In this document: positions 17,451-26,082 of the stretch, piece after piece
Layout: each line of letters begins with the position of its first letter
Numbering within the stretch: position 1 is the stretch's first letter
Assembly (NCBI GenBank): GCA_019748195.1
Contig: JAIEPW010000077.1
Location: forward strand, 1-37,526
DNA: 37,526 nt
DNA from: Bryobacteraceae bacterium
GTDB lineage: Bacteria > Acidobacteriota > Terriglobia > Bryobacterales > Bryobacteraceae
Direction of reading: 5' to 3'
Notes under the pieces: model-generated
What the model was told of the DNA's origin: nothing
The model's input: only the letters and a program-made list of their open reading frames with translations
The model's database searches: none
Translations under genes and position numbers: made by a program

Positions 17451-18784
17451 TCGTGATGAAGTTCGGCGGCACCTCCGTCGAGAGCGCGGAAGCGATCGCC
17501 CGCTGCGCCGGCATCGTGCGCGCGCGGCTGGATCGGAAACCGGTGGTGGTGGTGTCGGCGATGGGCAAGACCACCAACGGGCTGCTGGCGATCGCACATG
17601 CGGCGGTCAGCGGCGCTCGCGGCGAAGCTGCCCGGCTGCTGCACGAGCTAAAGGAGTATCATCGCCGGGAGTCCGGCATGGACCGCACCGTGGACGAGCA
17701 CTTCGGCGAGCTGACAGACCTTGTAAACGGGCTGGCTGTGCTGGGCGAGCTGACGCCGCGCGCGACGGATGCGATCGCCAGCTTTGGCGAACGGCTTTCC
17801 AGCCTGATCGTCGCCCGCCTGTTTCAGGATCATGGACTGCGGACGGTTCCCGTGGACTCGCGTTCGCTGATCGTGACGGACCATCGTTTCACGCAGGCGG
17901 CTCCGGATTTCGCGGCCACGTACGCCAACCTGCGGCGCGTGATCCCCGATCTTCTGGATCGCGTTCCGGTGATGGGCGGATTTATCGGCGCCACCCGCGG
18001 CGGCATCACCACCACGCTGGGACGCGGCGGGTCCGACTTCACCGCGGCCATCGTCGGGGCGGGTTTGGATGCCGGGGAAATCCAGATCTGGACCGATGTC
18101 GACGGTATGCTGACCGCCGACCCCACCTTGATCCCGGACGCGCACCGGCTGAAGCGCTGCTCCTTCGCGGAGGCGGCGGAGCTGGCGTACTTCGGGGCCA
18201 AGGTTCTGCATCCAGCCACGGTGATCCCGGCTATCGAGCGCGACGTCCCCGTCCGGATACTGAACTCGCGCCGGCCGGAGAACGAGGGCACGCTGATTGT
18301 GCGGGAGCCCATGTCCTGCTGGAACGCGATCAAGTCGATCGCCTGCAAGCGCAATATCACCGTGGTGAATATCGTGAGTTCGCGGATGCTGATGGCGCAT
18401 GGATTCCTGCGCGGGATCTTCGAAATCTTCGATCGCTTCGAAACGCCGGTGGACATGCTCGCCACCAGCGAGGTCAGCGTGTCGCTGACTATCGACAACA
18501 CGCATTCGCTGGAACCGATTCTGGCGGCGATCCGGGAGTTCGCCGAGGTTTCCGTGGAGCGCGATCAGGCGATCGTGTGCCTGGTGGGCGAGGATCTGCG
18601 CAACCGTCCCGGCCTGGCGGCCCGCATTTTCCGCGCCTTGGAGAGCATCAACATTCGCATGATTTCGCAGGGAGCGTCGTTGCTGAATGTCAGCGTGGTG
18701 GTCGCGTCCGGGGACTTGAAGCGGGCGGTGGAGCTGCTGCACGGCGAGTTCTTCCGGGAACTGGATCCGGCGGTGTTCGAATGA
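17447..18784 (+). CDS. lysC: Aspartokinase with C-terminal ACT domains
   Basis: This 445-aa enzyme phosphorylates aspartate to enter the lysine/threonine/methionine pathway. The amino-acid-kinase domain opens MIVMKFGGTSV (K5, G7-S10) and contains TLGRGGSDFTAAIVG and IWTDVDGMLTADP. The C-terminal ~140 residues form two ACT domains, with starts near NITVVNIVSSRM and AIVCLVGEDL, that usually bind lysine or threonine for feedback control. Length and motifs match the E. coli LysC type rather than the Bacillus alpha/beta type. Start chosen: ATG 17447, an ATGA overlap with asd; the frame is open further upstream only inside asd. It overlaps dapB by ATGA. No homoserine dehydrogenase domain is fused. 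Confidence 0.96.
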   Translation: MIVMKFGGTSVESAEAIARCAGIVRARLDRKPVVVVSAMGKTTNGLLAIAHAAVSGARGEAARLLHELKEYHRRESGMDRTVDEHFGELTDLVNGLAVLGELTPRATDAIASFGERLSSLIVARLFQDHGLRTVPVDSRSLIVTDHRFTQAAPDFAATYANLRRVIPDLLDRVPVMGGFIGATRGGITTTLGRGGSDFTAAIVGAGLDAGEIQIWTDVDGMLTADPTLIPDAHRLKRCSFAEAAELAYFGAKVLHPATVIPAIERDVPVRILNSRRPENEGTLIVREPMSCWNAIKSIACKRNITVVNIVSSRMLMAHGFLRGIFEIFDRFETPVDMLATSEVSVSLTIDNTHSLEPILAAIREFAEVSVERDQAIVCLVGEDLRNRPGLAARIFRALESINIRMISQGASLLNVSVVVASGDLKRAVELLHGEFFRELDPAVFE

Positions 18785-19464
18785 AGCTGGCGATCGTGGG
18801 CTACGGCCGGATGGGCCGCATGGTGGAGGCGCTCGCGCCCGCCTACGGGTTTGAGGTGATCGCGAGGATCGACGAAGGCGGAGATCTGGGTCAGGCGGCG
18901 CCCGCCGATGCCGCCATCGAGTTCACGACACCGGAGGCGGCGCTCACGAACATTGAAGCTTTGGCCGCGCTGCGCGTTCCCATCGTCTGCGGCACCACCG
19001 GGTGGTTCCAGCGGCTGGAGGCGGCGCGATCGGCCGTGGAGCGGACCGGCGGCGCGCTTGTCTACAGCCCCAACTTTTCGGTGGGCGTCCATGTGTTCGC
19101 CAGGCTGACGGAGCTGGCCGCGTCCCTGCTGAAGGACGAAAGCGAGTATGAGGCGTGGGCCTGGGAGATCCATCACTCGAAGAAAAAAGACGCTCCCTCG
19201 GGAACGCTGCTGAAGCTGTTGGAGGTAATGCGCGCCGGCGGCTATGCGCGTGCGATCGACAGCAGTTCCTCGCGCGCCGGCGCGCATCCGGGAACGCATG
19301 AAATCGGGTTCGATTCCGCGTCCGACACCATCACCCTGCGCCACGCGGCGCGTTCCCGGGAAGGCTTCGCCCGCGGGGCGTTACGGGCCGCGCAATGGAT
19401 TCGCGGCAAGACCGGCGTGTACGAATTTTCCGAAGTTCTGTTCGGCGCTGAAGGAGGCAAATAA
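18781..19464 (+). CDS. dapB: 4-hydroxy-tetrahydrodipicolinate reductase (short form)
   Basis: This 227-aa reductase is shorter than the usual 265-270 aa. The NAD(P) loop is VGYGRMGRM (6-14), the conserved CGTTG is at 70-74, SPNFSVGV at 96-103, and the catalytic dipicolinate-binding motif HHSKKKDAPSGT spans 131-142. It reduces the DapA product to tetrahydrodipicolinate. The compact N-terminal domain lacks several residues between the glycine loop and the EFTTPEA segment, which accounts for the length. The ATG overlaps the lysC stop (ATGA). The last codons form the Shine-Dalgarno AAGGAGG (19451-19457) used by dapA. Confidence 0.94.
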   Translation: MKLAIVGYGRMGRMVEALAPAYGFEVIARIDEGGDLGQAAPADAAIEFTTPEAALTNIEALAALRVPIVCGTTGWFQRLEAARSAVERTGGALVYSPNFSVGVHVFARLTELAASLLKDESEYEAWAWEIHHSKKKDAPSGTLLKLLEVMRAGGYARAIDSSSSRAGAHPGTHEIGFDSASDTITLRHAARSREGFARGALRAAQWIRGKTGVYEFSEVLFGAEGGK

Positions 19465-20358
19465 ATGTTTACGGGATGCGGCACCGCGCTGGTCACTCCG
19501 TTTCACCTGGACGGCTCACTCGATGAGAGCACGCTGCGGCGCCTGGTGCGGCGTCAGATGGATGCGGGTATCAACTTCCTGGTCCCCTGCGGCACCACGG
19601 GCGAGAGTCCGACACTGACGCGCGCTGAGCACCTGCGAGTTGTGGGCGTAACGGTGGAGGAGGCGGCCGGCCGGGTTCCCGTGCTTGCGGGAGCGGGCGG
19701 TTACAACACGCACGAAGTGATCGAGCTGGCGCGGGAAGTCGCCGCGCTGGGGGCCGACGGCATCCTGTCGGTGACTCCCTATTACAACAAGCCGACGCAG
19801 GAGGGTCTGTACCAGCATTACCGCGCCATCGCGGGAGCGGTGAACCTGCCGATCATCCTATACAGCGTGCAAGGCCGGACCGGCGTGAATCTGGAGCCCG
19901 CCACGCTGAAGCGGCTGGCCGAGATCGAAAACATCATCGGGGTGAAGGAAGCGTCCGGCAACATCGCGCAGCAGGCGATGGTGGTGCACCAGGTACCGGA
20001 GGATTTCCTGGTCCTGTCGGGCGATGACGCGGTGACCATTCCCCTGATCGCGCTGGGCGGGCGAGGGTTGATTTCGGTGGTGTCGAACGAAATTCCGGGC
20101 GAAATGACGGAACTGACCGCGCATGCGCTGGCTGGCGATTTCGCCTCGGCGCGACGCGTGCAGCGCCGTTTCCTGCCATTGATGGAAGCGAACTTCCTGG
20201 AGTCAAACCCCATTCCGGTGAAGGCGGCAATGGCTCGCATGGGCCTGCTGGAGCCCGTCTGGAGGTTGCCCCTGGCGCCGCCGTCGGCGGCCACGGAAAC
20301 CAAGCTGGAGATCATCCTGTCCGAGCTCGGGCTGCTGAAAGAAACGCATGCAGGTTGA
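19465..20358 (+). CDS. dapA: 4-hydroxy-tetrahydrodipicolinate synthase
   Basis: This 297-aa class I aldolase condenses pyruvate with aspartate semialdehyde. Catalytic residues align at E. coli numbering: T44-T45 in GTTGE, Y107 in TPYYNKP, Y133, R138 and the Schiff-base lysine K161 in GVKEASGN. The normally V-P-G-R-T loop reads V-Q-G-R-T, with Q136 in place of the usual proline. ATG 19465 follows the dapB stop directly and has the best ribosome-binding site in the operon, AAGGAGG at 19451-19457. It overlaps dapD by 11 nt. Confidence 0.97.
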   Translation: MFTGCGTALVTPFHLDGSLDESTLRRLVRRQMDAGINFLVPCGTTGESPTLTRAEHLRVVGVTVEEAAGRVPVLAGAGGYNTHEVIELAREVAALGADGILSVTPYYNKPTQEGLYQHYRAIAGAVNLPIILYSVQGRTGVNLEPATLKRLAEIENIIGVKEASGNIAQQAMVVHQVPEDFLVLSGDDAVTIPLIALGGRGLISVVSNEIPGEMTELTAHALAGDFASARRVQRRFLPLMEANFLESNPIPVKAAMARMGLLEPVWRLPLAPPSAATETKLEIILSELGLLKETHAG

Positions 20359-21184
20359 GATCGAGGCGTTGTTCGACGAAAGGCCCGCGGCTTATAGCGA
20401 CGCCCACTTCGCTCTGTTCGCGGATTTCAAGGCGGCGCTGAACGCGGGGTCCATCCGTAGCGCGTCGCCGGATGCGGGTTCGCCCAGCGGCTGGCGCGTG
20501 AACGCATGGGTAAAGAAAGGCATCCTGATCGGATTTCGCATGGGCGCGATCGTGGACATGTCGATCGACCGCTCCCGCCAGCCGTATTTCGATAAGGCGA
20601 CATGGCCGGTGAAGCAGATTGGCGCCGCGGATGGCGTCCGGATTGTTCCCGGCGGATCCTCCATTCGCGACGGCTGCTACGTCGGCAAGGGCGTTACATG
20701 CATGCCGCCGATGTACATCAACGCCGGAGCTTACGTGGGCGACGGCACCATGGTGGATTCGCACGCGCTGATCGGAAGCTGCGCGCAGATCGGCGGCGGC
20801 TGCCATATCTCCGCGGCGGCGCAGATCGGCGGCGTGCTGGAGCCGGTGGGCGCGCTGCCGGTGATCATCGAGGACGAAGTGATGGTAGGCGGCAATTGCG
20901 GCGTTTACGAAGGCACCGTGGTGAAGAAGCGGTGCGTTCTGGGCACGGGAACGATCCTGAATCGGTCCACGCCGGTGTACGACCTCGTCCGCGGACGGAC
21001 GTACGGCGCCACCGAAGATCAGCCGCTGGTGATCCCGGAGGACGCCGTGGTGATTCCGGGCTCGCGAGCCATCCAACACGGCCCCGGCAGGGATTGGGGG
21101 ATCTCGCTGTATACCCCGGTGATCGTAAAGTATCGGGACGCGAAGACGGACACCCGTATTCAGCTCGAGGATTTGCTCCGGTAA
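20348..21184 (+). CDS. dapD: Tetrahydrodipicolinate N-succinyltransferase
   Basis: This 278-aa left-handed beta-helix acyltransferase moves a succinyl group from succinyl-CoA to tetrahydrodipicolinate. Hexapeptide repeats run over about residues 95-200, with the diagnostic stretches PPMYINAGAYVGDGTMVDSH and GSCAQIGGGCHIS. Its presence shows that the operon runs the succinylase branch, consistent with dapE at the head. ATG 20348 lies 11 nt inside the end of dapA. It is the last gene of the operon and overlaps the convergent glycosyltransferase gene by 25 nt at the 3' ends. No dapC/argD aminotransferase or dapF epimerase is in this cluster. Confidence 0.96.
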   Translation: MQVEIEALFDERPAAYSDAHFALFADFKAALNAGSIRSASPDAGSPSGWRVNAWVKKGILIGFRMGAIVDMSIDRSRQPYFDKATWPVKQIGAADGVRIVPGGSSIRDGCYVGKGVTCMPPMYINAGAYVGDGTMVDSHALIGSCAQIGGGCHISAAAQIGGVLEPVGALPVIIEDEVMVGGNCGVYEGTVVKKRCVLGTGTILNRSTPVYDLVRGRTYGATEDQPLVIPEDAVVIPGSRAIQHGPGRDWGISLYTPVIVKYRDAKTDTRIQLEDLLR

Positions 21185-22257
21185 GCGCGTTCCAGCGAAT
21201 TCAGAACGGCCCCGGCCGTCCGCTCCCAGGTGAATTCGCGAGCCCGGTCGCGGCCGGCCGCGGCTAGCCGTTCCCGCAGCATTTCATCCGTCACGATGCG
21301 CCGCATCGCGTCCAGCAGGCCGGCGCGATCGGCGGGATCGAAGTACAGTGCCGCGCCGGCCGCCACCTCCCGCAGCGGCGGGATCGCGGAGCACGCGGCC
21401 GGCAAACCCGCCGCCATCGCTTCCAGCACCGGCATCCCGAACCCCTCGAAGGTGGACGGGTACAGGAACGCCCAGGCGTCGCGAAACAACCCGTATAACT
21501 CTTCCCGCGGGATCCACCCGGTCAGCGTTACGAACTCCGCTGCATTCTCCGCCGCGATCCGCCGCTCCAGCGCCTCGGCGTGGAAGCCTCGCATGCCGGC
21601 GATGACCAGACGGAACTCCGTATGCTCGCGGCGGAACTCGCTGAACGCGCTCACCAGCAGTTCCAGATTCTTATGTGGGTGCAGCGTCGAAACGCACAGC
21701 AGGAAGCGCCGCGGCCGGCCGCGGCGGAGCGTGAAGAACTCGGGCTCCACGCCGTGGTGGATCACGTCTACGGGACGGACGCCGTAGTGCTTCTCCAGGT
21801 CCGCCCGTGTAGCCTCGGAGACCGCGATCAGGCGATCCGACCGCCGCGCGCTGCCCTGAAGAAGCATGCGCCAGAAGGGCAGATCGAACCAGCGGAAGTG
21901 CTCGGGATGCCGCAGGTGCTGCAGATCGTGGAACACGGTCACCTGCGGGCATGGCGCCAGAAGCGGCGCCGTGAACCCCGGATTCAGCAGGACATCCACC
22001 TGATCGCGCCGCAGCGCGCGGAGCAGCCCGGTCTGCTCCCACGCGATCCGCCACGGCCGGTTGCGAGCCCGAACCGGCTGCACGCGCTTTACGAAATGCT
22101 CCGGGCCCAAGTCGATGCCGGTTTCGCGATTCGTGTAGAGGACGAACTGATGCGGCGGATCGAGCGCTGCCATCGCCTGCAGCAGGCGCCGCAGGTAGAT
22201 CTCGGTGCCGCCGACGCCACCCGGAATCAGGTAGAGCGCGTTGACGCCGATGCGCAT
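21160..22257 (-). CDS. Glycosyltransferase family 4 (GT-B fold)
   Basis: This 365-aa protein has two Rossmann-like halves. The acceptor side starts MRIGVNALYLIPGGVGGTE. The donor side contains LCVSTLHPHKN, LTGWIPREELYGLF and the E-x7-E motif in YPSTFEGFGMPVLEAMAAG. It is a retaining nucleotide-sugar transferase of the kind used on the cytoplasmic face in polysaccharide or glycolipid assembly. Its ATG overlaps the stop of the TPR membrane protein by one base (TAATG), so it is the last gene of a five-gene minus-strand operon beginning at 26082. The donor sugar is not predictable. Confidence 0.92.
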   Translation of the reverse strand: MRIGVNALYLIPGGVGGTEIYLRRLLQAMAALDPPHQFVLYTNRETGIDLGPEHFVKRVQPVRARNRPWRIAWEQTGLLRALRRDQVDVLLNPGFTAPLLAPCPQVTVFHDLQHLRHPEHFRWFDLPFWRMLLQGSARRSDRLIAVSEATRADLEKHYGVRPVDVIHHGVEPEFFTLRRGRPRRFLLCVSTLHPHKNLELLVSAFSEFRREHTEFRLVIAGMRGFHAEALERRIAAENAAEFVTLTGWIPREELYGLFRDAWAFLYPSTFEGFGMPVLEAMAAGLPAACSAIPPLREVAAGAALYFDPADRAGLLDAMRRIVTDEMLRERLAAAGRDRAREFTWERTAGAVLNSLERAYRSKSSS

Positions 22258-23987
22258 TACTTCCGCAGACGCTTCACGGCGTCCTGCGCCACTGTGTTGT
22301 TGGGATTCAGGCTGAGGGCGCGCTGATATTCGGCCAGCGCCTTGTCGGGCTCCTCGGTCAGCATCTCGAAAACGTTGCCCCGATAGACGTAGGTCATGTC
22401 GTAGCCCGGCTCAATTGACTCAGCCTGCCGCAGCGCTTCGAGCGCCGCGCCGGCATCCTTGCGGCGCCCGTGCGACATCCCGATCAGCGCGTAAGGGTGA
22501 GCCCGCTTTTCGAGCGAAGCCGCAAGCTGGAACTTCTCCAGCGCGCCCGTGGAATTCCCGGCGCATTCCAGCGCGAGCCCCCAATCGATGGCCAGTTCGT
22601 AGTTCATGGGCTGCAGCTTGGAGGTCCGCTCAAACTCGTCCACGGCCGGGCCGCACCTTCCCGATTCGTAGAGCGCGTAGGCGAGCTGGAAACGCGGCCT
22701 GGCCTTGGAAGGCGACTTCCGCACGGTGTCCTCCCAAAGCGTCACGGGGCTGCTCCACACCGTGGCTCTGCGATACGTGGCCACGCTAAAGACCAGCAGC
22801 AGGACGCCGGCTGCCGCGGCGAAGGTCATGGCGCTGGTGCGCCATCGCCGGGCGAATTCCAGGGTGATCATCAAGAGCCCGAAGAAGGGCAGGTACATGC
22901 GGCGCTCGGCGACCGGATCGCGAATGGGCGCCACCGAGGATGTCGGCGCCAGCAGGATCAGAAACACCAGCAGGCCGTAACACGCAAGCGGATACTTCCT
23001 GCGATGGATCCACGCCGCCGTCGCGATGCCCAGCAGGGCTGCCCACCACAGCACTCCCCCATGCTCGAATGCGGTTCGCGATATCGGGAACTCGGGGTCG
23101 ATGTTCAGGCCGGCTGGCAGCACGTACAGCCGTAGATAGGTCCAGATCGCGCGGCCCTGCGTGAAGAAGTATTGATACCAGGTCAAGTCGCGCATGCCGA
23201 AGCCCGCGGTGTCGGCGCTGGTCAGCAGGCGCAGAATCAGAACGGCGGTCGCGACGCCTCCCGCCAGCATCGGGATATAGAGCCGCCAATTACGGCGGAT
23301 CCCGTCCAGGGAGAAGCCGGGGCGGAAGAAGTAGTCGGTCAGCAGCAGCAGCGCCGGAAGGGTGACGGCGTGTTCCTTGGTGGCCGCGGCCAGGCCCCCC
23401 AGCACCAGCACGGCGGCGCTTACGCCCCATCCGATCGCCCCCGCGCGCCACAGGAAAATCACAAACGCCGCCAGGAAGAAAAACAGGCTCAGCACTTCCG
23501 AACGGCTGGAAACGTACGCCACCGATTCCGTTTGCACCGGGTGAACCAGGAACAACAAACCCGCGAATCCGGAAAGCAGAGTTCGCCGGGAGTTCACTTC
23601 TCCGGCAAGCTCCAGTACCTTCCAGGCAGCCAGCGCGATCAGCAGGCCGTTGAGGAAGTGCAGCAGCACGTTGAACGCGTGGTAGCTATAGGTTTCCGTT
23701 CCGGAAATCTGGAAGTTCAGCCAGAAGCTGGCTAACAGCATCGGGCGCGTCCCGCCGGCCCTCAACCATGCAAGAAAAGGCTGGTCGGGGCCGAAGTCCG
23801 GCCGGAAGAACGCGAAGGCGCGATCGTCGAAAAGGAAGGGACCGTGCAGCGCGGGCCCGTAGAGTTCGAGCAGGAAAAACAGAAGAAGGGCCAGCCCCGC
23901 CGCGTACAGCCCCCACTTCCGCGAGGCCCGCCTCACCTCCGCCGGCGGCGCCGCGGGCGCCTGCTTCTTCTTCTTATCGCCCTTCAC
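22257..23987 (-). CDS. TMTC-like membrane glycosyltransferase with C-terminal TPR repeats
   Basis: This 576-aa protein has a lysine-rich cytoplasmic start, about 10-11 transmembrane helices over residues 27-400, and about four TPR repeats from about 425 to the end. The first exported loop carries GPFLFDDRAF, with the acidic pair expected of GT-C enzymes. This layout (polytopic membrane domain plus TPRs) matches the TMTC-type protein O-mannosyltransferase group. The TPRs would face the periplasm and could bind acceptor proteins. The neighbouring DPM-like GT2 could provide the polyprenyl-phosphate sugar donor. Start chosen: GTG 23987, with GGAGG upstream and a 14-nt overlap with the DUF2304 gene. 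Enzyme activity is inferred, not shown. Confidence 0.78.
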   Translation of the reverse strand: MKGDKKKKQAPAAPPAEVRRASRKWGLYAAGLALLLFFLLELYGPALHGPFLFDDRAFAFFRPDFGPDQPFLAWLRAGGTRPMLLASFWLNFQISGTETYSYHAFNVLLHFLNGLLIALAAWKVLELAGEVNSRRTLLSGFAGLLFLVHPVQTESVAYVSSRSEVLSLFFFLAAFVIFLWRAGAIGWGVSAAVLVLGGLAAATKEHAVTLPALLLLTDYFFRPGFSLDGIRRNWRLYIPMLAGGVATAVLILRLLTSADTAGFGMRDLTWYQYFFTQGRAIWTYLRLYVLPAGLNIDPEFPISRTAFEHGGVLWWAALLGIATAAWIHRRKYPLACYGLLVFLILLAPTSSVAPIRDPVAERRMYLPFFGLLMITLEFARRWRTSAMTFAAAAGVLLLVFSVATYRRATVWSSPVTLWEDTVRKSPSKARPRFQLAYALYESGRCGPAVDEFERTSKLQPMNYELAIDWGLALECAGNSTGALEKFQLAASLEKRAHPYALIGMSHGRRKDAGAALEALRQAESIEPGYDMTYVYRGNVFEMLTEEPDKALAEYQRALSLNPNNTVAQDAVKRLRK

Positions 23988-24345
23988 GTGCTGCCTCCGC
24001 CTCCCGTTCCCTGCTGTTCAATTGGAACTCCAGGATCGCCACTCGCTGCGTCAGGGCGATGTTGGAGTCCTTCATCTCGGAGATGATCAATGAGAAGCGG
24101 TAGAACACGGCCAGGAACACGAAGGCGGCCAGCAACAGCAGCGCCAGGGGGCCGTCGCGCACGCCCGCGGCTTCCGCGAACCATTCCAGGCCGGAGCGCC
24201 ACCGCGACAAAGCCAGCAGAATGAAACAAGCCGCCAGCCAGCTCACCGAGTATTCCACGCGGATGTGCCGCCGCCGGACGGAGCCGAGCACCCAGATCAT
24301 GAGAAGTATGCTGAGGATCGTTGTCAGATCCAGCAAGCGGTCCAT
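23974..24345 (-). CDS. DUF2304 family small membrane protein
   Basis: This 123-aa protein has three hydrophobic helices (about residues 3-22, 30-48 and 62-82) followed by a predicted coiled coil rich in Glu, Arg and Gln. That matches the small DUF2304 proteins often found next to GT2 enzymes that make polyprenyl-phosphate sugars. It may act as a membrane anchor or partner for the DPM-like GT2, but this is inference from gene neighbourhood. Start chosen: ATG 24345, preceded by GGAGG and located just after the TGA of the GT2; the upstream in-frame extension lies inside that gene. Confidence 0.75.
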   Translation of the reverse strand: MDRLLDLTTILSILLMIWVLGSVRRRHIRVEYSVSWLAACFILLALSRWRSGLEWFAEAAGVRDGPLALLLLAAFVFLAVFYRFSLIISEMKDSNIALTQRVAILEFQLNSREREAEAAREGR

Positions 24346-24346
24346 T

Positions 24347-25078
24347 TCACTGCCTCCGTTTGCGCTGATCAATCTTCAGGATATTCACGAACACGCCCAG
24401 AAGCACGTGAATGATGTAGTAAAGCGACTTCCAGGCGGTGATGCTGCTGCGGCCCGCCTTACGGGGGCGCGAGGACACGGGCACTTCACGGAAGCGAAAC
24501 GCGCGGCGCTGCAGCACCACCAGCGCTTCGATCTCGGGGTACTCCAGGGGGAAGGTCCTGCTGAACACCGCCAGGGCGCGGCGGTTCACGCCCACATATC
24601 CGGAAGTGGGGTCATGCACCGGCTGGCCCAAGATCGGACGCAGCACGGCGCGGAAGAAACGGACGCCCAAGCCTCGCGCCACCGTGGTCGCCTTGGCATC
24701 TCCGTTCAGGAACCGGGAGCCGATCACCATTTCGCAGCCCGTCGTCTTCAAGACCTCCAGGATCTCAGGCACGTGCCTGGGATCATGCTGCCCGTCCCCG
24801 TCCAGGCGGATGACGTAATCGAAGCCCATCTCGAAGGCCAGCCGGTATCCGGCTTGCACGCAGCCGCCGAGCCCCAGGTGGTGCGGCAGGCCCAGCACTT
24901 CCGCGCCCGCAAGCTGCGCCACGGTGCGCGTTCCGTCCTCCGAGCAATCGTCCACCACCAGCACGGGGACGCCGGGCAGCGCGCGGTGCACCTCATCCAC
25001 CACGTGGCCGATGGCCGCCTCCTCGTTGTAGGCGGGGATCAGGATCATGTAGTCGCCCCTTCCGGACGCCGGCTTCAC
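24347..25078 (-). CDS. GT2 glycosyltransferase, polyprenyl-phosphate sugar synthase-like (DPM1-like)
   Basis: This 243-aa GT-A fold enzyme starts with ILIPAYNEEAAIGHVV, then VVDDCSEDG, and carries the DxD motif in IRLDGDGQHDP. It resembles dolichyl/polyprenyl-phosphate mannose or glucose synthases, which load a sugar from a nucleotide donor onto a lipid phosphate on the inner leaflet. The C-terminus has one weak hydrophobic segment (SLYYIIHVLLGVFVNIL), so extra membrane anchoring may come from the DUF2304 partner. Start chosen: GTG 25078, giving a GTGA overlap with the upstream GT2; ATG 25048 is the alternative. Confidence 0.86.
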   Translation of the reverse strand: MKPASGRGDYMILIPAYNEEAAIGHVVDEVHRALPGVPVLVVDDCSEDGTRTVAQLAGAEVLGLPHHLGLGGCVQAGYRLAFEMGFDYVIRLDGDGQHDPRHVPEILEVLKTTGCEMVIGSRFLNGDAKATTVARGLGVRFFRAVLRPILGQPVHDPTSGYVGVNRRALAVFSRTFPLEYPEIEALVVLQRRAFRFREVPVSSRPRKAGRSSITAWKSLYYIIHVLLGVFVNILKIDQRKRRQ

Positions 25079-26082
25079 AGTTCCGCCACCCGCCTCAGGG
25101 AAATGCGATGCCGATCCAGCATTTTGGACATTTGGAGAGGCTCGATTCGCCGGGACGCGGCGATCGCGCGTCTTTCGCGCAGCAGGGCGGGCAGGCGTTT
25201 CAACGTGTCCCAATGGGCCCGGACGACCACGCCGGCAAGGGCGAAGGCGGATCCGCCGCCCTGAACGAACTCGCCGGCCTTGCCGCGCCCGCCCAGCATC
25301 GCCAGCAGGTGATAGAGGTACCGGACCGCCGTAAACCAGGGCAGCAGCAATAAGCGTTTGCGCGGGAAATTCCGGACAGCCAGCCACAGACGGTTGCGCT
25401 CCACGTGATACGCCTTCAGCCGGGAGGCCCGCCCCGCGGACTGGGAATAACGATGCTCCACGACGGCGCCGGGAGCGTATACGCATTCCCAGCCTCGCCA
25501 GCGCGCTCGCAGTCCCAAATCTGTGTCCTCGCAATAGAGGAAGAAGCTCTCCTCGAAACCGCCCGTTTCCTCGAGCATCGCGCGGCGATACAAGGCCGCC
25601 GAACCGCTGGGACAGAGAACGTCCGCGCGCTTGGAGTAATCCGCCGGGGATTCGCCGTGACCGCGCTGCCGGCTGGACCCGTCGCGCGCGATGTTCATGC
25701 CCGCCGAGTCCAACATTCCGCCAGGCATGCGCACCTGCGATGCCGCCATGCCGATCTCAAAGCGGGGCATCGCCGCCACCAGGGCAGCGAGCCATTCGGG
25801 AGCGGGGACGGCGTCATCGTTCAACGCCGCGATGAACTCGGCTTGCGAGGCTCGCCACACCTGATTGATCGCCGCGCCGTAACCCACGTTGCGGGCGTTC
25901 CGCAGAAACTTCACACCCGGCCAGGACGATTCCCAGCCTTCCGTCTGATTTTTCCCGCTGTTGTCGACGACGTAAACCTCAAAATCGGCCAAGGTCTGGT
26001 TTGCCAGGGCGCGGAGGCAATCCGAGATCACGGCGCTGTCGCCCAGCGTCGGTACGGCGACGGTTACTTTTGGAAGCTGCAA
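25075..26082 (-). CDS. GT2 glycosyltransferase, rhamnosyltransferase-like
   Basis: This 335-aa GT-A fold transferase opens KVTVAVPTLGDSAVISDCLR, has a donor-site NDDAVP and the acceptor-side FFLYCEDTDLGLRARWRGW typical of WbbL/rhamnosyltransferase-like GT2 proteins. It probably adds a sugar to a lipid-linked or cell-surface glycan. Start chosen: TTG 26082, because the -10 TAGAAT at 26094-26089 ends six bases upstream, predicting a leaderless TTG start. It is the first gene of the five-gene glycan operon. Donor and acceptor are unknown. Confidence 0.88.
   Translation of the reverse strand: MQLPKVTVAVPTLGDSAVISDCLRALANQTLADFEVYVVDNSGKNQTEGWESSWPGVKFLRNARNVGYGAAINQVWRASQAEFIAALNDDAVPAPEWLAALVAAMPRFEIGMAASQVRMPGGMLDSAGMNIARDGSSRQRGHGESPADYSKRADVLCPSGSAALYRRAMLEETGGFEESFFLYCEDTDLGLRARWRGWECVYAPGAVVEHRYSQSAGRASRLKAYHVERNRLWLAVRNFPRKRLLLLPWFTAVRYLYHLLAMLGGRGKAGEFVQGGGSAFALAGVVVRAHWDTLKRLPALLRERRAIAASRRIEPLQMSKMLDRHRISLRRVAEL

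Follow-up and report, generated by a model that had tools for sequence, protein, structure and literature searches.

What is made by five tightly packed genes in a 37,526-nucleotide (nt) stretch of DNA from a Bryobacteraceae bacterium (assembly GCA_019748195.1, contig JAIEPW010000077.1; hereafter the window), and to what is the product attached? The genes, part of a 5.83-Mb genome, lie on the minus strand from 26082 to 21160. In order, they encode a family 2 glycosyltransferase (GT2), a second GT2 resembling dolichol-phosphate-mannose (DPM) synthases, a small DUF2304 membrane protein, a membrane protein with C-terminal tetratricopeptide repeats (TPRs) and a family 4 glycosyltransferase (GT4). 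The original prediction, made from the sequence alone, saw here a candidate protein O-glycosylation cassette, and its coordinates, its compact junctions of 1–14 nt overlap or a 1-nt gap, and its gene families were borne out. The five genes are kept together in most Bryobacteraceae genomes, and the TPR protein is predicted to be a transferase of the GT-C type that resembles the TMTC enzymes of animals. The cassette is probably a functional, conserved five-gene glycosylation operon; protein glycosylation is its most likely predicted use. Its features are as follows.

25075..26082, minus strand: gene 1, GT2 glycosyltransferase (335 amino acids (aa), TTG start at 26082; PF13641 1.1e-22, PF00535 1.1e-22)
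24347..25078, minus strand: gene 2, DPM-like GT2, predicted polyprenyl-phosphate-sugar synthase (243 aa, GTG start; PF00535 6e-20)
23974..24345, minus strand: gene 3, DUF2304 small membrane protein, GacJ/WpsB-like partner (123 aa, ATG start; PF10066 6.6e-18, over cut-off)
22257..23987, minus strand: gene 4, TMTC-like GT-C glycosyltransferase with C-terminal TPRs (576 aa, GTG start; AlphaFold2 pTM 0.85)
22755..23987, minus strand: predicted GT-C membrane domain of gene 4, residues 1-411 (11 transmembrane (TM) helices; AlphaFold2 pTM 0.84)
23823..23828, minus strand: DD (D54-D55) of motif M1 in periplasmic loop 1, invariant among orthologues
22260..22748, minus strand: TPR domain of gene 4, residues 414-576, predicted periplasmic (TPR_2 1.1e-8; ten helices in the model)
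21160..22257, minus strand: gene 5, GT4 glycosyltransferase (365 aa, ATG start; PF00534 1.4e-31, PF13439 1.3e-23)

The stop codon of gene 1 and the GTG of gene 2 share 4 nt (GTGA), a 1-nt gap separates genes 2 and 3, and the remaining junctions are overlaps of 14 nt (DUF2304 and GT-C) and 1 nt (GT-C and GT4). The GTG at 25078 taken as the start of gene 2 agrees with aligned relatives, the mechanically called open reading frame (ORF) beginning further upstream. Judged by eye, the GT2 of gene 1 and the GT4 of gene 5 are cytosolic and carry no export signal.

Each of the five genes was searched over the same 61 Bryobacteraceae genomes and the results were tallied. Rows weaker than E 4.8e-48 (GT-C), 1.5e-70 (GT2) or 1.5e-67 (GT4) were not counted, being taken for paralogues or fragments; these cuts were set by eye at gaps in the match lists, and genome G003 was kept at 1.3e-58 as an exception to the GT4 cut. 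All five genes were present in 44 genomes and none in 13, with four of the five in two genomes, two in one and a single gene in one. Here "none" means none at these cuts, since weaker paralogues occur in the 13 genomes, which include incomplete assemblies (e.g. G006, 80%, and G059, 82%). In 39 of the 44 complete sets the genes lay on a single contig within 9 kb; thus the genes are kept together in relatives, a point on which the original prediction had made its case depend. The DPM-like gene, found as one orthologue per genome in 46 of the 61 (61–74% identity outside the window's own genome), occurred with the GT-C gene in all 46; two genomes had the GT-C gene only, none the DPM-like gene only, and 13 had neither. 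Orthologues of the gene 1 GT2 were likewise found in 46 genomes (46–60% identity) and those of the GT4 in 45. The incomplete sets were G001 (GT-C only), G034 (GT-C and GT4 only), and G039 and G058 (both without GT4); G034 as a whole gave no match for the DPM-like or the DUF2304 gene, and its GT-C gene sits at a contig end. Such presence or absence as a set, together with the conserved overlaps, argues against the five genes being unrelated or decaying neighbours that share no pathway, an explanation that we consider scarcely credible.

Five of the complete sets were split across contigs. Assembly breaks seem to account for three of these (G011, G016 and G050), and two look truly rearranged: in G026 the set is in two parts (GT2-DPM and DUF2304-GT-C-GT4), and in G023 it is in three (GT2-DPM, DUF2304-GT4 and GT-C). 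Because all genes were kept in both, the set appears to matter beyond mere position. In G026, the gene upstream of DUF2304 (L076:10158-11342) begins, by eye, like a glycine C-acetyltransferase.

Gene order was read in two sets of loci. Set A comprised 18 relatives of the TPR protein, window included, from a scan of public genomes, with record labels of Bryobacteraceae (5), Bryobacterales (3), Terriglobia (5), Candidatus Sulfopaludibacter (1), Acidobacteria (3) and Acidobacteriia (1). Set B comprised 33 family loci (L067-L099) out of 51 strong GT-C rows, and at least four set A loci repeat set B contigs. All five genes stood in order in 30/33 loci of set B and 13/18 of set A, the other five of set A being truncated by a contig end. 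Of 49 DUF2304 places in the family, 44 are followed by a GT-C match on the same strand, at 23–162 nt in 43 cases and at 1413 nt in one. Short overlaps also recur, with the GT2 and DPM-like genes sharing 4 nt in 23 of the 29 set B loci with a value; start codons of the relatives were picked by script, and the GT2-DPM value of locus L089 is an artefact. Identity to the window proteins ranged from about 68% for the DPM-like protein down to about 46% for GT-C. Inserts were seen in two loci, namely 348 nt between the DPM-like and DUF2304 genes in L073 and one extra gene in L089. The extra gene (L089:5397-6722, minus strand, genome G056), placed between DUF2304 and GT-C, encodes a 441-aa membrane protein with a PMT_2 match under the cut-off (8.2e-5), as if a second GT-C enzyme drew on the same donor.

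In a tree of 85 GT-C rows, from which the window sequence was left out and which was rooted arbitrarily on one PF08409-positive tip, the cassette GT-Cs formed one group (53 tips, support 0.931). The group included four non-cassette copies (G001, G034 twice and G058), so that linkage has at times been lost or the gene copied. Among 122 genomes of the class outside the family, DUF2304 was found in nine (over the cut-off in eight), in none of them with a listed GT-C match 2 kb or less away (list to about E 1e-19). As for the chromosomal site, genes for a PHO4 phosphate transporter and a PhoU_div protein are found upstream of the cassette, and dapB-dapA-dapD (window 18577-21184) converge on it from the downstream side; dapD adjoins GT4 in 11/33 family loci, so the site is partly conserved.

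What kind of enzyme is the TPR protein? Sequence searches with its membrane half were insignificant: against PDB sequences there were eight unrelated matches (E 0.17 or worse), against NCBIfam the window protein had no match, and against Pfam there was no significant match, with PMT_2 in two of the 18 orthologues (best 0.0093) and Mannosyl_trans4 in one (0.0031). The case for fold and homology is therefore built on structure prediction and on a profile bridge. A fold search with the full-length model filled up with TPR proteins, amid which the STT3 entry 8age_A appeared at Z 18.8, and the membrane domain was then folded alone with 17 relatives (AlphaFold2). In a VIA-align comparison of this model, with one row per entry, the 44 best rows were GT-C-type (Z 8.6–19.6), and the next row, a receptor, had Z 4.7. 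Four of the 44 are GPI-transamidase chains, which we take to be GT-C-like. The list included 8age_A (STT3; Z 19.6, root-mean-square deviation 4.8, 326 aligned), 5ezm (ArnT; Z 17.6, deviation 4.6, 317 aligned), AftD (Z 15.9), PMT and ALG12 (both Z 15.8) and PglB (Z 15.4). Foldseek returned nothing at E<=0.001 for the membrane domain, the best entries being 7oci (0.013) and 5ezm (0.016) at probability 1.00. None of these fold and sequence lists contained a TMTC entry, an absence that carries no weight either way. On the predicted structure, the membrane domain has a GT-C fold.

The model helices and the positive-inside pattern of the 18 sequences gave 11 TM helices, with the N-terminus inside and the C-terminus and TPRs outside. 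Lysine plus arginine per 10 aa was 0.8–5.8 in the six inner segments and 0–2.0 in the six outer segments, where the values of 2.0 and 1.6 were due to a conserved K and to ERR. The same N-in, 11-TM, TPR-out layout has been proposed for TMTC in the part of the literature drawn on here (PMC6801728). TPR_2 was matched in all 18 members of set A, and the TPR domain aligned with TPR proteins including OGT and MamA at VIA-align Z of about 19–21. The fold, the helices and the outward TPRs support the GT-C membrane transferase that had been proposed for gene 4.

TMTC1-4 (CAZy GT105), the animal protein O-mannosyltransferases, likewise consist of a GT-C domain with 11 TM helices followed by outer or lumenal TPRs. 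A search of the cassette protein with the TMTC model, PF08409 (TMTC_DUF1736), which had been suggested as a check, gave no match. PF08409 matches over cut-off occur in 33 of 297 Acidobacteriota genomes, and a profile made from the cassette membrane domain found 15/15 fetched PF08409-positive loci (E<=2.7e-13). Among the 1865 ORFs searched, 88 of which have six or more hydrophobic windows, the 85 matches of this profile at E<=10 all fell in GT-C/TPR loci. Consistent with this, hhalign aligned the cassette membrane domain with the PF08409-positive proteins at probability 100 over 390 columns. Because it is homologous to PF08409-positive proteins yet itself has no PF08409 match, we describe the gene 4 protein as TMTC-like in predicted fold, layout and catalytic residues and do not claim proven GT105 membership.

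Motifs were counted over 51 rows, i.e. the 18 of set A including the window and the 33 of set B including two without the cassette (L097 and L099). The DD of M1 in loop 1 (D54, D55) was present in 51/51, so the acidic loop, whose loss would have told against the original prediction, is invariant. In M2 (SHKSYRP, loop 1), R81 was kept in 51/51 and P82 in 47/51, and the preceding residues differ in the 18 set A rows. M3 (RxD) has R162 in 51/51 and E or D at 164 in 51/51; M4 (KE(T/Q)xxT) has K204 in 51/51 and E205 in 48/51, its third residue being mostly H or Q; M5 (DW) has D297 in 51/51 with the W kept in part. M6 (PxxP in TM9) was not kept, the 18 set A rows reading PTSSxxP, and in M7 (ERxxY, loop 5) E361 was found in 49/51 (D in 2), R362 in 50/51 and Y365 in 51/51. 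Compared by way of the published motifs, DD, RP, RxE/D, KE, D and ERxxY are thus common to TMTC1-4 and the cassette orthologues, which keep the metal- and phosphate-binding residues listed in the consulted part of the TMTC account, i.e. DD, KE, the D of DW and ERxxY (PMC7801869). Unlike TMTC1-4, the cassette enzyme keeps neither the PxxP of M6 nor the S-H-K-S-Y part of M2, which docking placed next to mannose (PMC7801869, in part). It is also encoded together with a predicted donor synthase and two soluble transferases, and its donor is probably not mannose. With S-H-K-S-Y absent, and with the GT2/DUF2304 pairs consulted making N-acetylhexosamine (HexNAc) donors, the earlier idea of O-mannosylation was not supported.

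These motifs also bear on a strict TMTC mode, in which a single sugar would pass from polyprenyl-phosphate-sugar to Ser/Thr of exported proteins while the GT2 and GT4 are only co-regulated and serve another product. TMTCs are regarded as transferring a single mannose from a lipid monophosphate, and the residues of M1, M4 (KE), M5 (D) and M7 that are kept here would suit such an enzyme. Against it, the mannose-touching part of M2 is not kept, and of the 46 genomes with the DPM-like gene, 44 keep the GT2 and GT4 alongside the other three; we regard this mode as improbable.

A bacterial TMTC-type protein, which had been thought worth describing as such, is not in itself a novelty: the same account, in the part used here, reports full-length TMTC homologues in many prokaryotes and describes the enzymatic activity of TMTCs themselves as not yet demonstrated in 2021 (PMC7801869). 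These homologues and the PF08409-positive Acidobacteriota proteins share with gene 4 the architecture, the motifs and profile homology over the whole membrane domain. Unlike the cassette, 0/15 PF08409-positive loci (7.6–15 kb each) had a GT2/DPM-like or DUF2304 neighbour. At one of these loci a GT4-like gene (L153:8338-9729, plus strand, genome G256) is divergent from the PF08409-positive GT-C/TPR gene, the sole such neighbour among the 15. The new part is the fixed donor-plus-transferase cassette.

Which donor would such an enzyme use? The DPM-like GT2 has a profile match to dolichol-phosphate-mannose synthase 5mlz (4e-18), and its best NCBIfam models, AglJ (TIGR04182; 2.5e-23, 82.9 bits against a cut-off of 325) and PpgS (2.2e-20), both score below cut-off. 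PpgS works with Rv3632, which we take to be a DUF2304 protein. In the haloarchaeal Agl pathway AglJ primes dolichol phosphate and AglB, an STT3, transfers the glycan; the cassette similarly combines a DPM-like primer, soluble extenders and a GT-C transferase, and STT3 heads the fold list of its GT-C domain. It differs from the Agl pathway in that the AglJ score is below cut-off and the GT-C protein has TPRs in place of the STT3 C-terminal domain. Closer to the gene arrangement, a DPM-type GT2 followed directly by DUF2304 is of the GacI/GacJ type: GacJ-like proteins, whose genes immediately follow those of GacI homologues, have the DUF2304 domain (PMC8327497), WpsA makes GlcNAc-P-C55 and is activated by WpsB (PMC10821137), and the mycobacterial synthase of polyprenyl-P-GalNAc is PpgS together with a small membrane protein, Rv3632 (PMC3485146), as given in the portions of these sources that we used. 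Since the cassette pair resembles GacI/GacJ and WpsA/WpsB, HexNAc is by analogy likelier than mannose as the donor sugar. By its sequence the pair thus belongs to a known kind of lipid-linked-sugar synthase, as had been proposed.

In GacI/GacJ, WpsA/WpsB, EpaI/EpaJ and PpgS/Rv3632 a GT2 is encoded beside a DUF2304 protein or a small membrane partner, and these pairs supply wall polysaccharides in Gram-positive bacteria or mycobacteria. This use of the pairs consulted is the ground for envelope-polymer decoration, in which the GT-C enzyme would, as in GacI/GacJ-type or three-component systems, add the HexNAc of polyprenyl-P-HexNAc to a polysaccharide, lipopolysaccharide or lipid and the TPR domain would dock it to an assembly complex. 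The cassette pair, unlike those pairs, comes from an Acidobacteriota family and is tied there to the gene of a GT-C protein with TPRs. No TPR-bearing GT-C enzyme appears in the consulted parts of accounts of those systems ("TMTC" and "tetratricopeptide" occur 0 times in PMC8035078, "TPR" 0 times in PMC11127046), and among proteins for which a function has been proposed, those most closely related to the GT-C protein are the TMTCs, which modify proteins. We think decoration of an envelope polymer unlikely, if a more serious contender than the strict TMTC mode. Three-component systems (GtrA/GtrB/Gtr; CsbB/GtcA/YfhO) also unite a polyprenyl-P-sugar synthase, a small membrane protein and a GT-C enzyme; the cassette differs in having two extra soluble transferases and a TPR domain, and in the lack of GtrA from the genome.

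How might the five products work together? Computation gives the family of the synthase pair, the GT-C fold, the motifs, the topology and the conserved linkage; the donor sugar, the extension, the flippase and the protein acceptor of the following scheme we infer. We favour a dedicated periplasmic glycosylation operon, to which we give not quite an even chance, in which a lipid-linked glycan is built, flipped and transferred to exported proteins recruited by the TPRs. By analogy with the known pairs, DUF2304 would hold the DPM-like GT2 at the membrane and activate it, and polyprenyl phosphate would be loaded with one sugar, probably HexNAc. The soluble GT2 and GT4, whose role is most simply that of extending the lipid-linked sugar, would then build a short lipid-monophosphate-linked oligosaccharide on the cytoplasmic face; we place them before flipping because they depend on nucleotide sugars and, by eye, lack a signal for export. 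A flippase encoded elsewhere would turn the glycan over, and the TMTC-like GT-C protein would transfer it in the periplasm to exported proteins recruited by its TPR domain. Taken singly, it is very likely that the GT-C enzyme uses the product of the linked synthase, a protein is a reasonably probable acceptor, and an oligosaccharide is slightly favoured over a single sugar. The most specific form of the proposal, a bacterial TMTC-type oligosaccharyltransferase with a GacI/GacJ-like primer and two extenders that transfers en bloc to TPR-chosen exported proteins, is a speculative one that we hold rather unlikely.

Several results weigh against the proposed periplasmic glycosylation operon. PF08409 has no match at E<=1 in the window's genome and is absent from the 14 Pfam families matched at E<=10 by the membrane halves of the 18 orthologues. 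Copies of the GT-C clade occur without the cassette in G001, G034 (contig C335) and G058 (contig C189, a 3-kb contig), and genome G180 has a GT-C copy (E 1.4e-87) and no DUF2304. The cassette has no conserved acceptor gene, TPR domains also scaffold complexes, and comparable GT2/DUF2304 pairs, in the sources used in part here, pass their glycan to polysaccharide, not protein. Finally, no flippase gene is linked to the locus, as originally noted, and GtrA/GtcA (PF04138) had 0 matches at E<=0.01 in the window's genome, other flippase families not having been searched genome-wide; the same model matched in 8 of 14 control genomes, over cut-off in seven. With GtrA absent, either DUF2304 aids export or another, unlinked flippase acts.

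Is a synthase coupled to such transferases elsewhere? In a second family in the class, f4, six loci from five genomes were picked among the strongest matches. A different DPM-like GT2 directly precedes the GT-C/TPR genes in five of the six (L140-L144), and in the sixth, L145, the genes directly upstream are two for GT2s and one for a Polysacc_synt (Wzx-type) flippase (PF13440 1.5e-18); we count these loci in favour of the proposed operon. In three f4 loci (L140:4824-5894, L141:9705-10754 and L142:6263-7405), the DPM-like GT2 and GT-C/TPR genes are immediately preceded by a gene of 349–380 aa whose product seems, by eye, to have a signal peptide and matches no Pfam model above cut-off; it is a candidate acceptor or partner. 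Two f4 loci have GT-C/TPR genes in tandem, two of about 730 aa in a row (L141:4642-9026 and L142:8080-12499).

Seven other GT-C/TPR paralogues of Bryobacteraceae (L100-L106) had no GT2, DPM-like or other, within 2 kb (0/7), two having one at a distance of 3.9–6.7 kb. All seven have T, S or I where M3 of the cassette enzymes has E. One of them is a second, orphan paralogue in the window's genome (33% identical; L100:7959-9515, G000:C147:38626-39936), with no linked GT2, GT4 or DUF2304 genes. In other loci of the class (L149:6562-7649, L150:6784-7903 and L146:7289-8310), other DUF2304 genes adjoin other DPM-like GT2s with no recognised GT-C/TPR gene; the GT2/DUF2304 pair seems to be reused in several pathways.

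In the open-licence literature, mainly at the level of titles and the starts of abstracts, we found no account of such a cassette or of the donor, acceptor or role of a bacterial TMTC-like enzyme. By tying a TMTC-like enzyme to its likely donor synthase, the cassette makes donor and acceptor testable in one small operon. It could serve as a simple model of how TPR-bearing GT-C enzymes choose proteins. Were the TMTC-type oligosaccharyltransferase to prove true, these bacteria would have a third route, beside the PglB-type and PglL-type, by which periplasmic proteins are glycosylated with a preassembled glycan, and would provide a prokaryotic model for the animal TMTCs.

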